Shown here piece by piece: positions 148 to 5,299 of a stretch of DNA of 5,299 nt. The stretch covers positions 1 to 5,299 of the forward strand of contig JABGPX010000919.1 of NCBI GenBank assembly GCA_018644745.1, in the 5' to 3' direction. The stretch is from Spirochaetales bacterium (GTDB lineage: Bacteria; Spirochaetota; Spirochaetia; ARS1246). Under the pieces are notes generated by a model. That model was given only the letters and a program-made list of their open reading frames with translations, did no database searches and was not told the origin of the DNA. The translations under genes and the position numbers were made by a program. Numbering within the stretch: position 1 is the stretch's first letter; each line of letters begins with the position of its first letter.

Positions 148-1461
148 TTACAACGCAGCGCCTTTTGATCGGCCATATTCGAGTTTCAGATTTTCAGTTA
201 CCAAATAGTCCATGTAGTCTTTCTGGCAGTTGAGCCTGTCAGTATCGCCATATTTGATATACGAGCCATAGATGCAGCCGTCGCCGCAGAGCGCTACATT
301 TTCGCAGCTAGTACAACGTCTCCACAGGTCCTTTTTTACCTCGCCGCTATCCCCGGTTTCAATTGTGCCTACACAAAACTCCTCACGCCCGACAAAAGCC
401 ATACATTTATAGAGCTTCCCGACGGGATCAATGGTTATTTGTAGACCATCGAGGGTGATACCGCAAACATTCACTCCGATGCTGTCATCGGTCTTAAAGC
501 GGTTGTCAATGAGAAGCTTGCGTAGCTTAACCATTGCCTCACCGGTCCCCTCTCGAGAATAGGCACATGCCAGTTCCGCGGAAAGAGGCGCCTTCTTCCT
601 ATCCTCAGGAGTCTCCGATATAGGCTTGAAGCTCACCTTATTCAAAGTTCGATGAAGGCCAATATCTCGAAGATAAAGAATGAGACTCTCAAAACTATCT
701 ACGTTTGTGTCGTCAAAGTTGCCGCCTACGTCTACCGCTATGTGTTTTGCAGCATACCGGATGTTTTCGATAATATCATCAAAACTTCCCTCGCCGTTTT
801 TATACGGCCTTTTCGCATTGTGATGTGCTCTGTCTCCGTCGATGGTAACTTTTACGCCTTCGAGACCGAGTTTTTTTAGCTCCCGTACCAGCGATGGCTT
901 CAGCAATGCACCGTTTGTCGTGAGAGCAAACCCGAATTCAAGTCCCTTCTTCTCACAATGCTTGCGTACCGCTTTTGCGATTGACCGAATCGGAGGGATG
1001 TTCATGAGAGGTTCACCTCCGTAAAAGTAAAGGTTGATTGTTTCAACGTTGTTTTTCCCGGCTTGATCGATGATATAACTTGCACATTTCGCCGTAGTCT
1101 CTTCATTCATCCTTATGTTGCAGATTACCCCATCCTCCACACAGTATGTACATGCGAAGTTGCATGCGAATGTGGTAAGCAGGGTCACCTCAAGAGATTT
1201 TTCCGTAATCGATTTAATCTCTTTGAAGTAATCCTCGATCAGGCTCGTATCCGCGGCCGAATCAGGAACAATCATAAAGCGGTCTTGAAGCTCTTCCCGG
1301 TATGGCGCGGGGACTTCGCCTCTATACTCATCAGGATTATCGATGTATCCCTTCAACTCATCATCCACCGTTATTATGCTATGGGTAAGAGTATTAAATA
1401 AAAGATGCTGACCTTTCCGGGGATAATTCGCTACACATTTAGTATAAAGTGACCGCTTCAT
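148..1461 (-). CDS. Radical SAM/SPASM peptide maturase (RiPP-modifying enzyme)
   Basis: Cytoplasmic iron-sulfur enzyme of 437 residues, read as the maturase of the peptide encoded just upstream. Residues 1-90 include GQHLLFNTLTHSII and a run of acidic residues, resembling the N-terminal leader-recognition-like region of other maturases (inference). The radical SAM core has the cluster motif C100-x3-C104-x2-C107 (ACNFACTYC) and the GGEP motif at 148-151, the SAM-binding element. The C-terminal SPASM domain is complete: C333-x14-G348-x4-C353, then C383-x2-C386-x5-C392-x3-C396, then C412, giving seven cysteines for two auxiliary [4Fe-4S] clusters. SPASM enzymes make thioether, C-C or other crosslinks in peptides, or act on sulfatases and PQQ or mycofactocin precursors; which reaction applies here cannot be told. 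The start at 1461 is chosen because AGGAG lies five bases upstream. An in-frame extension to a GTG at 1539 would run through the intergenic hairpin and lacks a good ribosome site. The gene follows the peptide gene by 87 bases. Confidence 0.93.
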   Translation of the reverse strand: MKRSLYTKCVANYPRKGQHLLFNTLTHSIITVDDELKGYIDNPDEYRGEVPAPYREELQDRFMIVPDSAADTSLIEDYFKEIKSITEKSLEVTLLTTFACNFACTYCVEDGVICNIRMNEETTAKCASYIIDQAGKNNVETINLYFYGGEPLMNIPPIRSIAKAVRKHCEKKGLEFGFALTTNGALLKPSLVRELKKLGLEGVKVTIDGDRAHHNAKRPYKNGEGSFDDIIENIRYAAKHIAVDVGGNFDDTNVDSFESLILYLRDIGLHRTLNKVSFKPISETPEDRKKAPLSAELACAYSREGTGEAMVKLRKLLIDNRFKTDDSIGVNVCGITLDGLQITIDPVGKLYKCMAFVGREEFCVGTIETGDSGEVKKDLWRRCTSCENVALCGDGCIYGSYIKYGDTDRLNCQKDYMDYLVTENLKLEYGRSKGAAL

Positions 1462-1466
1462 AATAA

Positions 1467-1471
1467 CTCCT
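1467..1471 (-). promoter_or_regulatory. Ribosome binding site setting the maturase start
   Basis: AGGAG on the minus strand, five bases before the ATG at 1461. It decides between this ATG and the 26-codon longer in-frame reading from a GTG at 1539. It lies just beyond the U run of the upstream hairpin, so read-through transcripts would carry it exposed. Confidence 0.75.
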
Positions 1472-1477
1472 ATCGAC

Positions 1478-1515
1478 AAAAATCCGCCGCGGGGCATGAA
1501 AACCGCACCCCGCGG
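1478..1515 (-). terminator. Hairpin with short U run between peptide gene and maturase; possible leaky terminator
   Basis: On the minus-strand RNA, CCGCGGGG (1515-1508) pairs perfectly with CCCCGCGG (1494-1487) around a 13-base loop. The spacer CGGA and five U residues (1482-1478) follow. The stem is strong and GC-rich, but the U run is short and offset by four bases, so partial rather than full termination is likely. It lies between the precursor gene and the maturase gene, where RiPP operons often hold an element that gives more peptide mRNA than enzyme mRNA. A second hairpin, ACCGC/GCGGU (1516-1502) around GGGGU, uses part of the same bases and excludes the first. Function is inferred; the pairing is visible. 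Confidence 0.55.
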
Positions 1516-1548
1516 TGTTTCACCTACCATCGGGAACACGACTCCAGC

Positions 1549-1656
1549 TTATTTTTTCTTTACAAAAAGATATGCCATTCCGAGCCACCAGCAGCATGCC
1601 ATTCCCTGTACTTTTCCCGGTCGATCTGATCCTCTCTTCACTGTTTTGAGCGTCAT
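1549..1656 (-). CDS. Small RiPP precursor peptide (35 residues), candidate substrate of the SPASM enzyme
   Basis: A 35-codon reading frame with ATG at 1656 and TAA at 1551-1549. A near-perfect Shine-Dalgarno site GGAGGTGA lies four bases before the ATG, and the start falls 20 bases after the stop of the substrate-binding protein gene, so translation coupling is likely. The N-terminal half (MTLKTVKRGSDRPGKVQ) is basic and hydrophilic and would serve as leader. The C-terminal half (residues 18-35, GMACCWWLGMAYLFVKKK) holds the only two cysteines, adjacent at 21-22, two tryptophans at 23-24, Tyr29, Phe31 and a triple-Lys tail. GMA occurs twice, eight residues apart (18-20 and 26-28). These side chains (Cys, Trp, Tyr, Phe, Lys) are usual targets of SPASM peptide maturases. 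I recognise no known precursor family. Alternatives are a small membrane peptide that is not modified, or a coupling leader for the maturase. Position, ribosome site and composition make the precursor reading the best one. Confidence 0.75.
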   Translation of the reverse strand: MTLKTVKRGSDRPGKVQGMACCWWLGMAYLFVKKK

Positions 1657-1660
1657 CTGC

Positions 1661-1668
1661 TCACCTCC
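1661..1668 (-). promoter_or_regulatory. Very strong ribosome binding site of the small peptide gene
   Basis: GGAGGTGA on the minus strand, an almost full match to the anti-Shine-Dalgarno sequence, four bases before the ATG at 1656. It is the best ribosome site in the operon. This is the main argument that the 35-codon frame is translated, and translated at a high level. Confidence 0.8.
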
Positions 1669-1676
1669 AAAAAAGA

Positions 1677-3281
1677 TTATTGTGCCCGTATCTTCCAATC
1701 ACGCACCGAATACATGAGCGACTGTGGTTCTGCCATCAGTCCTTCGATTTGCGATGTAGCACCGATATAAATTCTGCGGACAAAGAGAAAGATTGACGCG
1801 GTATCATCCGCCATAATCTGATGGATACCGCGGTAGACGGTTCGTCTTTTCTCGATGTCGCTTTCGGATCTGCCTTCTTCGATTAGTCGGTCAACTTCGG
1901 TATTTCTGTATCTGGCAAGGTTCGACGCACCGATCCTGCTCGAGTGCCAGAAGAGAAAAGTAAAATTGTCGGGGTCCCCCGCGGCATTAAACTGGAGCAG
2001 CGCTGCCTGGTAGAGGCCCGGATAAATACGTTCCTGAAGGAACTCACGCGGCGCGAGATATTCCACATTTACCTGAACACCGATCTGAAATAACTGCCAC
2101 TTGATCTGTTGAGCCACCGATTCCTTAAGTCCGTCGCCTTCATCAATCAGCAGAGAAATCTCGAGCTTTTTGCCGTTATTGTCGAGAATCCCGTCATCAT
2201 CCGTATCCGCCCATCCTTCATCGGCCAGCATCTTTGCAGCCTCCGGGGGATCATATTCCGTCGATACAGATTGATTGTGCGACCACGTGCCGGGAATAAA
2301 GGGACCTGTGGTTACATCAGCACGCCCGTTGAGAGTTTCACCCACGATTCCTTCGGTATCAATCGCCATTTTCAAAGCGCTTCTGACCGCCGGATTCATG
2401 AGTAAAGGATCTTCGAAATTGAGCAGAATGGTGTAATAGAACAGATCGAGATAGCTGTAGGTAGTAAACCGTTCATCCTCATCGATAACTTTGAAATCAT
2501 CAGGATCCAGATCGGTGACAATGGAGACCCGGCCCTGCATCAGTTCCGACCAGGCTTGAGTTGAATCCTGGAGGGTGCGAAGCCGCACGGTATCGAGATA
2601 GGGTCTGCCTTCGAAATACCCCTCATACGCGGTGAGAGTGATGGCGTCATCGTCCCACGAAGAAAGCATGAAAGGACCGGTTCCGATTGGATTTATTCGA
2701 AAATCATCACCCGACATTTCGCCGTTCTCTAAAAGATGACTTGGTAAGATTTCTATTGTCAGCAGGTGAAGAAGAGGCGCGTAGGGCTGGCGAAGCTCGA
2801 TTCGAACCGCCAGGGCACCGGTTGCTTGAATAGATTTTATATTTGCATAAAGCGGGCTGACGGCGTAGCTGTCTCCTCCCCTCAGAATTTCCTCGAGAGT
2901 AAAAACCACGTCGTTGCTGTCAAATATATGGCCGTCATGGAAAGTAACACCTTCGCGAAGTATAAAATCCCACTGGGTGCCATCGCCGGAAACGATCCAC
3001 GATTCTGCCAGATCGGAGACCGGCTCGAGGCTTTCATCGATTTTAATAAGGCTGTTATACACGAGCTGAAGCGCGGTGGCGTCGACATTCCTGTCAATAA
3101 GGGGATGGAACCCCTCCAGACCACGAAGCAAGGGGATAGTCACCGCACCGCCATATTCGGATTCATCATTTTGACATGACTGTGCGACAAGCAGCGCTGC
3201 CAGGAGAAGCACCAGCGCCGCGGTACTTCTTTTTCGTTTGAGGTGACTCTTGCTCTGTTGTCGAACCTGTTTTCCGCTCAT
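1677..3281 (-). CDS. Lipoprotein substrate-binding protein of an oligopeptide/dipeptide-type ABC transporter (SBP family 5)
   Basis: Extracytoplasmic solute receptor, 534 residues, in the usual size range of DppA/OppA-type proteins. A long basic N-region (residues 1-18) and a hydrophobic stretch (about 20-33) precede A-Q-S-C36. This is an atypical lipobox, lacking Leu at -3, but Cys36 is the likely lipid anchor. Family hallmarks are DGTQWDFILREGVTFHDG (100-117) followed by DVVFTLE (124-130), NPIGTGPF (197-204), the central NPAVRSALKMAID (296-308), and DPDNFTFLFWHS (436-447). Members bind peptides, nickel or other small solutes for import; the ligand is not predictable here. No permease or ATPase gene is visible in the window. 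Being first in an operon with a peptide gene and its maturase suggests it may bind that peptide, or a related one, outside the cell (inference). Start: ATG at 3281 with AAGGA four bases upstream. A TTG at 3299 with AAGGAG eight bases upstream is a credible alternative adding six residues. Confidence 0.93.
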   Translation of the reverse strand: MSGKQVRQQSKSHLKRKRSTAALVLLLAALLVAQSCQNDESEYGGAVTIPLLRGLEGFHPLIDRNVDATALQLVYNSLIKIDESLEPVSDLAESWIVSGDGTQWDFILREGVTFHDGHIFDSNDVVFTLEEILRGGDSYAVSPLYANIKSIQATGALAVRIELRQPYAPLLHLLTIEILPSHLLENGEMSGDDFRINPIGTGPFMLSSWDDDAITLTAYEGYFEGRPYLDTVRLRTLQDSTQAWSELMQGRVSIVTDLDPDDFKVIDEDERFTTYSYLDLFYYTILLNFEDPLLMNPAVRSALKMAIDTEGIVGETLNGRADVTTGPFIPGTWSHNQSVSTEYDPPEAAKMLADEGWADTDDDGILDNNGKKLEISLLIDEGDGLKESVAQQIKWQLFQIGVQVNVEYLAPREFLQERIYPGLYQAALLQFNAAGDPDNFTFLFWHSSRIGASNLARYRNTEVDRLIEEGRSESDIEKRRTVYRGIHQIMADDTASIFLFVRRIYIGATSQIEGLMAEPQSLMYSVRDWKIRAQ

Positions 3282-3316
3282 TTTTTCCTTATTAGTCAAT
3301 CGGGATACTCCTTATA

Positions 3317-3469: not shown

Positions 3470-4474
3470 ATGAAAGATGAACGAACGGTAAGCTGGTACA
3501 GAGTGCCAATCGAACGGGATGTGCTGAGATCCCTCACAAAAAAGAGCAATTTCCGCGGCTTTCTCCAGGCCGGCGGCCATCTCGCGTTGCTGGCGGCAAC
3601 AGCCGTGGCCGCGTTTCTCTCAGTAGGCAGGCTGCCGGTGGTAATCACCGTGCTCCTCATTTTTCTCCATGGCACTTTCTATGCCTTCCTGCTCAATGGC
3701 TTTCATGAGCTATCTCACCGAACGGTCTTCAAAACACGGTTTCTCAATGAGTTTTTTTTGCGAATTTATAGCTTTCTGTCCTGGTTTAATTTTGTTTTCT
3801 TTCGTGAAAGCCATAAGCAGCACCACCTCTATACACTTCATCCGCCTGATGATCTAGAAGTGGTGCTGCCAATAAAGTTCACTCTCAAAGACTTTCTGTT
3901 ACGGGCATTTGTTAACCCGATGGGGCTGTATGAGCTGCCTCGCAATACGATCAGACACGCGCTAGGCCATATAAGCGGAGAGTGGCCTGAGAAGCTCTTT
4001 CCCGCAGAGAACGTGAAACTAAGGAAAAAACTTTCTCGTTGGTCCTGGGTCTTGCTGATCGGCCACGCACTAAACACAGGTTTTTGTATCGCCTTGGGGC
4101 TGTGGATGATACCCCTGCTGACCACTTTTGCACCTCTGTATGGAAACTGGTTTCTCTATTTATGCAACAACACTCAGCACGTCGGGCTCAAAGATAATAC
4201 GAGCGACTTCCGGCTCAGCGCTCGAACATTTGAAGCTGGTCCGCTAATAAGATTCCTGTATTGGCAGATGAATTATCACATTGAACACCACATGTACGCG
4301 GCGGTGCCCTGCTATAGACTAAGAAAGCTGCACCGGCTGATCGAAAATGAGCTTCCGCCAAGCCCGAAAGGATTGGCGGGGACATGGCGTCTGATTCTCA
4401 CCATTCTGAAGCGGCAGAAAAGTGAACCTGATTATCAGTATGATGCTTTGCTCGCCGAGGGAGTCCAAGGTTAA
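3470..4474 (+). CDS. Membrane-bound di-iron fatty acid desaturase
   Basis: Integral membrane oxygenase of 334 residues in the FA_desaturase family, expected to introduce a double bond into an acyl chain or a related lipid, using O2 and electrons from a ferredoxin or cytochrome partner not seen here. All three histidine boxes are present: HELSH (79-83), HKQHH (115-119) and HIEHH (270-274). They bind the two irons on the cytoplasmic face. An extra NTQH (234-237) lies before box 3, as is common in the family. Hydrophobic stretches at about 35-52, 55-76, 95-112 and 191-233 form the membrane hairpins. Length and box spacing look intact. Substrate and double-bond position cannot be read; related proteins are sometimes annotated as dihydrorhizobitoxine desaturases, but nothing here supports that role. 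The ATG has no visible ribosome site. A LuxR-type regulator follows after 9 bases, so the two are likely co-transcribed. Confidence 0.9.
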   Translation: MKDERTVSWYRVPIERDVLRSLTKKSNFRGFLQAGGHLALLAATAVAAFLSVGRLPVVITVLLIFLHGTFYAFLLNGFHELSHRTVFKTRFLNEFFLRIYSFLSWFNFVFFRESHKQHHLYTLHPPDDLEVVLPIKFTLKDFLLRAFVNPMGLYELPRNTIRHALGHISGEWPEKLFPAENVKLRKKLSRWSWVLLIGHALNTGFCIALGLWMIPLLTTFAPLYGNWFLYLCNNTQHVGLKDNTSDFRLSARTFEAGPLIRFLYWQMNYHIEHHMYAAVPCYRLRKLHRLIENELPPSPKGLAGTWRLILTILKRQKSEPDYQYDALLAEGVQG

Positions 4475-4483
4475 AGCTTTATC

Positions 4484-5014
4484 ATGTACCGCATCGCGGT
4501 AATAGATAATAATCGGGAATTATACAATCGCCTTCAGAAAGAAGCCGACCGGCGCATGCCGGGTTTGCTTGCTTTTGAGGGGCCGTTCACGGAAACAGAA
4601 ACCACTGCAGACGCTGTAGTGTCTGTAGATAATGATGAATATGAGGTATCCCAGGTAACCTTGCGGGTGCCAAAAGAATCACCTGCCAATGACGATACTT
4701 CTGAAACAATATTAAAGCTCGATGGCACCCGGCCGATCAGAATTCTTGCGGCACTTCTAGCTTCGCTGCTGGATTTCGATGTGAAAGACCTGCTGATTAA
4801 AACACCATCCAAAGGCAGGGAATTGACCGCTCGCGAGTCAGATGTTCTCAATTTTATCGCTGCAGGATATACAAATAAAGAAATCGCAGGCTTCCTTGGA
4901 ATCACGGAGAGAACAATCAAGTTTCATGTGTCGGAAATACTCGCAAAACTCAATGTAAGCGGCAGAACAGAGGCGGTTGTGGAAGCCGCAAAAATGGGAA
5001 TAATTACTCTCTAA
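4484..5014 (+). CDS. LuxR/NarL-type transcription regulator with a non-canonical N-terminal domain
   Basis: DNA-binding regulator of 176 residues. The C-terminal part (about 112-170) is a clear GerE/LuxR helix-turn-helix: LTARESDVLNFIAAGYTNKE followed by IAGFLGI, TIKFHVSEILAKLNV and a closing RTEAV. The N-terminal ~100 residues begin MYRIAVIDNNRELYNRL, like the first strand and helix of a response-regulator receiver, with a single Asp8 where an acidic pair is usual. The segment is shorter than a normal receiver (about 120 residues), and I see no convincing phosphorylated Asp or conserved Lys. It may be a pseudo-receiver or an unrelated ligand or partner domain. The start lies 9 bases after the desaturase stop with only a distant AAGG (4467-4470), so translation probably depends on coupling to the desaturase. 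Its targets may include its own operon (inference). Confidence 0.85.
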   Translation: MYRIAVIDNNRELYNRLQKEADRRMPGLLAFEGPFTETETTADAVVSVDNDEYEVSQVTLRVPKESPANDDTSETILKLDGTRPIRILAALLASLLDFDVKDLLIKTPSKGRELTARESDVLNFIAAGYTNKEIAGFLGITERTIKFHVSEILAKLNVSGRTEAVVEAAKMGIITL

Positions 5015-5099: not shown

Positions 5100-5299
5100 A
5101 TGGATATGAAATCGACTTCCCAATCAATCGCAGCAATAGCGAAAGCTTTTGAACCCTTTGTTCTTCATGTTGAAGACTCATCAGGAATTCGAAGCGCAAT
5201 ACTGATAGATACATACGTGGTTACCGCGGCACATGGTCTGGATACCTCAGAGGCCGTGTTAGTAACAAACGGAGATGGTGAGAACCTCTCGGTTTCTTT
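5100..5299 (+). CDS. Trypsin-like serine protease, N-terminal part (cut by the window edge)
   Basis: The first 66 codons of a gene that leaves the window. The start is set by AAGGAG (5089-5094), five bases before the ATG. After a short Ala-rich helix-like stretch (about 9-19), residues 20-66 look like the first barrel of a chymotrypsin-fold peptidase: FVLHVEDSSG, then AILIDTYVVTAAHGL, where His45 in TAAH would be the catalytic histidine. The expected catalytic Asp and the GNSGG-type serine motif would lie past the window edge, so activity cannot be judged. There is no signal peptide or membrane anchor at the N-terminus, unlike most HtrA/DegP proteases, which suggests a cytoplasmic enzyme or a protease domain fused to further domains. 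It lies 85 bases after the regulator gene on the same strand. Confidence 0.75.
   Translation, partial: MDMKSTSQSIAAIAKAFEPFVLHVEDSSGIRSAILIDTYVVTAAHGLDTSEAVLVTNGDGENLSVS

Follow-up and report, generated by a model that had tools for sequence, protein, structure and literature searches.

A short Cys-Cys peptide gene beside a radical SAM/SPASM enzyme: a probable precursor-maturase pair and distant relative of the geopeptide system

A 35-codon gene and the radical SAM/SPASM enzyme gene beside it probably form a precursor-maturase pair, a reading that we hold with good confidence on the strength of comparison between related loci. Small ORFs encoding a Cys-Cys pair occur upstream of the homologous enzymes beyond chance, and the comparison shows the gene pair itself, a conserved Cys-Cys and leader, and a recurring operon. 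By sequence, the two genes form a distant branch of the NCBIfam geopeptide family, one that its models do not recognise. The window, the whole stretch of 5,299 nucleotides analysed, carries on its minus strand a gene for a periplasmic binding protein, then the 35-codon ORF and then the radical SAM/SPASM gene; the binding-protein gene is likely to be the first of the operon. The features are as follows.

1677..3299, minus strand: SBP_bac_5 periplasmic binding protein, oligopeptide AppA-like; start codon uncertain
1661..1668, minus strand: Shine-Dalgarno site GGAGGTGA at 4 nt from the ATG, with its GGAGG at 7 nt, as read from the sequence
1549..1656, minus strand: candidate RiPP precursor gene, 35 codons, reads MTLKTVKRGSDRPGKVQGMACCWWLGMAYLFVKKK; Shine-Dalgarno site; homologous enzymes have Cys-Cys small ORFs upstream; 46% identical to the peptide of L001
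1630..1644, minus strand: leader motif T-V-K-R-G, 12 residues before the Cys-Cys; motif in 47/52 peptides
1585..1596, minus strand: core Cys21-Cys22-Trp23-Trp24; Cys-Cys in 52/54 loci with a Shine-Dalgarno-preceded ORF, CCWW also in L001
1487..1515, minus strand: inverted repeat rich in G+C, in the gap separating precursor and enzyme; may form an attenuating hairpin, 10-bp stem predicted
148..1461, minus strand: radical SAM/SPASM maturase of 437 aa with PF04055; TIGR04280 is the best of the NCBIfam models and 5wgg the closest of the solved chains
1141..1164, minus strand: radical SAM [4Fe-4S] motif CNFACTYC; Cys100, Cys104 and Cys107 invariant in 36 sequences
226..465, minus strand: SPASM region with seven Cys (333, 353, 383, 386, 392, 396, 412) invariant in 36 aligned sequences
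3470-4474, plus strand: fatty-acid-desaturase-like protein, divergent from the binding-protein gene; best NCBIfam match NF041365 GntB, weak (51 bits vs 380)
4484-5014, plus strand: LuxR/GerE-type regulator
5100-5299, plus strand: partial ORF cut by the window end, contains VVTAAHG

The precursor ORF opens with GGAGGTGAGCAG-ATG, 20 bases (1657-1676) past the binding-protein stop, which ends at 1677; the bases before the ATG read ...TTTTTTGGAGGTGAGCAG-ATG, and 87 nt separate the end of the ORF from the enzyme's aligned ATG. The sequence-only reading had described this arrangement, a 35-codon frame with a ribosome site, 20 bases after the preceding gene and directly upstream of a complete radical SAM/SPASM enzyme, and the sequence bears it out. 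It had also recognised no precursor family in the peptide, and no NCBIfam or Pfam family matched it, in an NCBIfam scan that included TIGR04229 and went up to E 10. On the plus strand, past the binding-protein gene, lie the desaturase-like gene, the LuxR-type regulator and the beginning of a further ORF. The N-terminal half of the regulator had no receiver-domain match at E up to 1, and it may or may not pair with a kinase outside the window. The partial ORF had no Pfam match; its VVTAAHG resembles the trypsin-like protease His motif.

Chance alone produces many short frames, and the ORF could be spurious or the enzyme could have another substrate, which we consider very improbable. We compared 78 distinct enzyme loci, the window included, with a profile score of at least 225 bits and at least 420 nt of upstream DNA; L106 and L018 were left out for their short upstream DNA. 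Under the strict rule a small ORF counted if 5 nt or more of AAGGAGGT stood ahead of it, and Cys played no part in the rule. Such an ORF lay upstream of the enzyme at 54 of the loci and encoded Cys-Cys in 52. The same rule applied to 549 other genes of these loci gave 97 small ORFs, three with Cys-Cys, and the shuffled control gave Cys-Cys in 18 of 3900; the draws are not independent, given the relatedness of the loci and the overlap between a few of the control loci. A leader motif, defined as two of ILVMTF, any two residues and a Gly 9-14 residues before the Cys-Cys, was present in 47 of the 52 Cys-Cys peptides; when the leaders were shuffled 500 times it appeared in 3.4 of 52 on average and in 10 at most. 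Looser rules, judged by eye and with no control, gave a Cys-Cys peptide at 18 of the 24 loci lacking a strict candidate, in two of them (L013 and L019) about 1.6-1.9 kb upstream of the enzyme. Homologous enzymes kept beside no conserved short peptide had been named by the sequence-only reading as the pattern that would count against it; the survey instead found a Cys-Cys peptide at 52/78 loci by the strict rule and at about 70/78 with the relaxed ones, the latter judged by eye.

Eight of the 78 loci (L117, L004, L052, L051, L055, L066, L007 and L061) showed no convincing Cys-Cys peptide even under the relaxed rules, as a spurious ORF or another substrate would allow. In four of these eight, however, a leader-like peptide lies on the opposite flank of the enzyme, as judged by eye with no control. 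In L004 (6819-6893), L007 (9332-9403) and L055 (9035-9100) it is a single-Cys candidate precursor that lies downstream of the enzyme and has a ribosome site, with the cores YCVWLV, LCPFFVT and VCSWYLY; in L052 it is a leader-like candidate without Cys. Three further loci were added from the phylum to which L009 belongs (L009 is Brocadiaceae and therefore Planctomycetota): two of them, L139 and L141, have the leader and Cys-Cys, and the third, L140, has none in its short upstream sequence.

Some variants of the pattern are recorded here as observations. L004, L007 and L055 lie near the base of the group, and their single-Cys candidates hint that one Cys, rather than the pair, is the essential target. 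In L049, a Geobacteraceae MAG, two different candidate Cys-Cys precursors (4018-4122 and 5522-5704) flank the enzyme gene. Three Nitrospirae candidates (L047, 7752-7952; L039, 7535-7774; L060, 3380-3550) have long Lys/Ala-rich leaders before the Cys-Cys core, an odd leader type.

The nearest readable locus, L001, comes from a Spirochaetes MAG whose enzyme is 52% identical to that of the window. Its peptide, MNLTVMSKGSRKPQRVVAAACCWWITYAVLFDKRKRG, is 46% identical to the window peptide. The sequence-only reading had proposed looking among homologues for conserved CCWW or GMA; the CCWW is kept in L001, but the GMA is replaced by ITY, and we rejected GMA as a conserved motif. A search with the peptide alone through 394 genomes of L001's class matched exactly upstream of the L001 enzyme at E 1.7e-6, which argues against a spurious ORF; 113 other genomes were matched, all at E 0.0096 or worse. 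The search missed the peptides of five other enzyme-bearing genomes of the class (G002, G041, G110, G139 and G230); the cores that could be read among these are CCSW, CCLW, CCAD and CCGL. Enzyme relatives at E 1e-40 were present in 6/394, 16/285, 1/2 and 5/26 genomes in searches at class, order and phylum level, the groups partly overlapping, and stricter enzyme searches gave 1/392 genomes at 1e-60 and 3/392 at 1e-70. No CCWW peptide beyond L001 appeared in these searches for nearer relatives, and we rejected the Trp pair as a family-wide core, as it is not conserved past the nearest relative. The residue after the Cys-Cys is often aromatic, and the Cys-Cys alone is universal across the strict set. 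Residues past it vary widely between peptides, so the family has no conserved thioether acceptor, unlike the Cys-x3-Asp of PapB (PMC8172795).

The Cys and Trp codons in tandem, followed by a possible hairpin, raise the question of an attenuator, in which they would control transcription of the enzyme and the peptide itself would have no function. In the relatives, the sequence separating peptide and enzyme is more stably folded than its shuffles, z being below -2 at 38/51 loci (mean -3.4), as such control would predict. The gap of the window alone gave z of -0.8 and -0.3, which are not significant, and we therefore rejected its hairpin as evidence. The amino-acid leader motif is conserved well ahead of the Cys codons, the Trp pair is conserved no further than the nearest relative, and the gene downstream is a peptide-maturase-type enzyme rather than one for Cys or Trp synthesis. 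We give an attenuator very little credence. In the relatives the hairpin is as would be expected of a read-through terminator keeping the precursor above the enzyme.

The enzyme of the precursor-maturase pair looks complete. Alignment places its start at the ATG at 1461, the GTG at 1539 in the ORF list giving a longer frame. The cluster pattern C100-x3-C104-x2-C107 and the SPASM pattern C333-x14-G-x4-C353, C383-x2-C386-x5-C392-x3-C396 and C412 are those of a radical SAM/SPASM RiPP maturase, and all of these cysteines are invariant in the 36 aligned sequences. Related proteins numbered 286, and among the best 120 of these the nearest apart from itself, P0002-P0014, are 62-65% identical. The top NCBIfam model is that of the geopeptide maturase, TIGR04280, and the enzyme falls far below both the PapB model (148.8 bits vs a cut-off of 340) and the SCIFF model (107.2 vs 425). 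The closest solved chain, 5wgg, is presumably CteB; the enzyme profile aligns to it from position 10 against residue 7, the alignment being poor there, and the N-terminus of the enzyme, the place for a precursor-recognition (RRE) domain, had no Pfam match. The ranthipeptide systems SCIFF/CteB and PapB likewise combine a radical SAM/SPASM enzyme having two auxiliary-cluster motifs with core cysteines, but their precursors have six Cys or a repeated Cys-x3-Asp and the window peptide has one Cys-Cys pair. CteB has two auxiliary clusters in its SPASM domain plus an N-terminal recognition element, and both CteB and PapB form thioethers on non-alpha carbons (PMC8172795). Viral contigs gave 19 matches to the enzyme, the best with 26% identity over part of it (E 1e-23) and the others weaker.

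The relationship to the geopeptide system (peptide TIGR04229, maturase TIGR04280) is closer. The window shares with it the enzyme tree, the leader motif, the Cys-Cys and the order of peptide before enzyme, and in a broad sense the window peptide, with its leader motif, then Cys-Cys, and a gene just upstream of the enzyme, is of the geopeptide kind. Geobacter-type members of the window's enzyme tree reach TIGR04229 or TIGR04280: the enzyme of L057, a Geobacteraceae MAG, scores 649.1 with TIGR04280, and among seven peptides scanned that of L037 alone reaches TIGR04229 (32.7 vs 30). In contrast, the window enzyme scores 269.8 bits against a cut-off of 400 and its peptide is unmatched; the core is CCWW rather than CCTGG-like, and the neighbouring binding protein is SBP_bac_5, where geopeptide-side loci have a PF04392 binding protein and a TonB receptor. 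As NCBIfam and Pfam do not recognise the peptide and the enzyme is below the cut-off, the pair would be a new branch of a named family. The proposal of a candidate new RiPP system is supported, but the system is not wholly new, since the best model of the enzyme is that of the geopeptide maturase, below its cut-off. No mention of geopeptide, TIGR04280 or TIGR04229 was found in the literature searched, a limited collection.

A quick tree of 109 enzymes, with SH-aLRT support only and several long branches, groups the window enzyme with P0002, P0005, P0010 and P0012 (support 100). The next to join are L001 and its identical copy P0018 (99), within a clade of 22 rows (99). The Geobacteraceae enzymes with geopeptide-type peptides nest in a separate clade of 45 rows (100). 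Neighbouring genes within 6 kb were grouped at 69 loci by single linkage, with cluster representatives alone named by Pfam. The enzyme cluster was present at all 69 loci, a kinase/response-regulator cluster at 58, a TonB receptor at 55, a PF04392 binding protein at 36, SBP_bac_5 at 26 and an ABC exporter at 14. On the tree, the 45-row clade takes in the PF04392 labels and the SBP_bac_5 labels lie elsewhere, except in L023, which has both. These surroundings, an oligopeptide-type binding protein and a kinase-cluster gene, often with a TonB receptor or ABC exporter in relatives, are unusual for a RiPP. We do not favour a bacteriocin: what recurs around the enzyme is binding proteins, receptors and kinases, and a scan of one ABC exporter, that of L129, showed no peptidase domain.

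The 26 SBP_bac_5 loci were reduced to 24, as L136 repeats L005 and the copy in L023 is distant and on the other strand. In 20 of the 24 the enzyme is followed within 6 kb, on its own strand, by a kinase-cluster gene; in L127 the kinase-cluster genes come after two unrelated genes. The four loci without one are the window, L007, L009 and L131, where 147, 1291, 108 and 199 nt of sequence are left, and no kinase is visible in the window. The two kinases scanned carry dCache, HAMP and HATPase domains. Identities of the binding proteins follow those of the enzymes across the 24 loci (Mantel r 0.83; none of 2000 permutations as high), a co-variation that may reflect common descent alone. The best solved match of the binding-protein profile is AppA, an oligopeptide-binding protein (390 bits).

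We infer modification, export, binding and sensing of the peptide from these associations. The TVKRG motif near the N-terminus would be the recognition leader and the Cys-Cys-Trp-Trp tail the core. The enzyme would cleave SAM at the CX3CX2C cluster and, assisted by two SPASM auxiliary clusters, modify the core at its Cys residues; by analogy with its nearest characterised relatives, it would most likely introduce one or more thioether crosslinks. Once trimmed, the product would leave the cytoplasm, and the oligopeptide-type binding protein encoded alongside would bind it in the periplasm. Since a dCache histidine kinase follows in relatives, the bound product would probably be sensed by it, either as a signal or as a peptide carrying metal. 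The recurrence of binding protein and kinase thus suggests binding and sensing outside the inner membrane; that the periplasmic protein binds the product and that the product is sensed is a proposal to which we give a little under an even chance.

The main alternative end use is a metallophore, in which a thiol-bearing RiPP would be secreted, bind metal and be retrieved through a TonB receptor and the binding protein, with the kinase regulating its production. This would alter the last step of our preferred reading and leave the precursor-maturase pair unchanged, and we think it possible but unlikely. Methanobactin operons likewise hold a short Cys-containing precursor and an AppA/OppA-like periplasmic binding protein, as found beside the window precursor, and the proposed route parallels methanobactin uptake by MbnT and MbnE. 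They have a sigma-type regulator, where the window family has a histidine kinase, and methanobactin is made with MbnBC rather than a radical SAM maturase. MbnA has 22-40 aa, MbnE is OppA/AppA-related and MbnT is the TonB transporter of methanobactin (PMC7558416). The clusters of TonB receptors, both kinds of binding protein and ABC exporters favour this route, as does AppA as the best solved match of the window binding protein. No ABC-importer permease was among the matches listed for Pfam families matching at least two of the 69 unclustered neighbour ORFs at the 24 SBP_bac_5 loci, which also fits; these matches are the best 25 of 99 families, with single-member ones partly covered. Many relatives also share a TonB receptor or exporter with those operons. 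Against a metallophore, no TonB receptor was clustered in the three members of the window's clade with long upstream DNA (L002, L125 and L126, with 5.5-7.8 kb), and none is in the window, the upstream DNA of L001, L127 and L128 being too short to judge. MbnE (5ICQ) is absent from the best 60 of 107 solved matches of the binding protein. No MbnB- or MbnC-type gene was found among the window ORFs scanned, nor, among the matches listed, in families matching at least two of the 69 neighbour ORFs.

Beyond the precursor-maturase pair, the loci may represent a class of Cys peptides, found in several phyla and made by radical SAM enzymes, that has a periplasmic receptor of its own. Such peptides would be made, exported, recovered and sensed by the cell, as an autoinducing signal or a metallophore with new thiol chemistry. 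We put this forward tentatively, with slightly less confidence than the binding and sensing of the window product. The class would span Spirochaetota, Omnitrophota, Planctomycetota, Desulfobacterota and Nitrospirota, and its receptor would be the binding protein with the histidine kinase, often with a TonB receptor and sometimes with an exporter. Radical-SAM peptide systems are mostly interpreted as antimicrobials or cofactors. If true, a precursor and maturase travelling with a binding protein and a sensor kinase through several largely uncultured phyla would provide a concrete case, open to testing, of a peptide that a cell produces for sensing or for acquiring metal, with a chemistry made tractable by the short Cys-Cys core.
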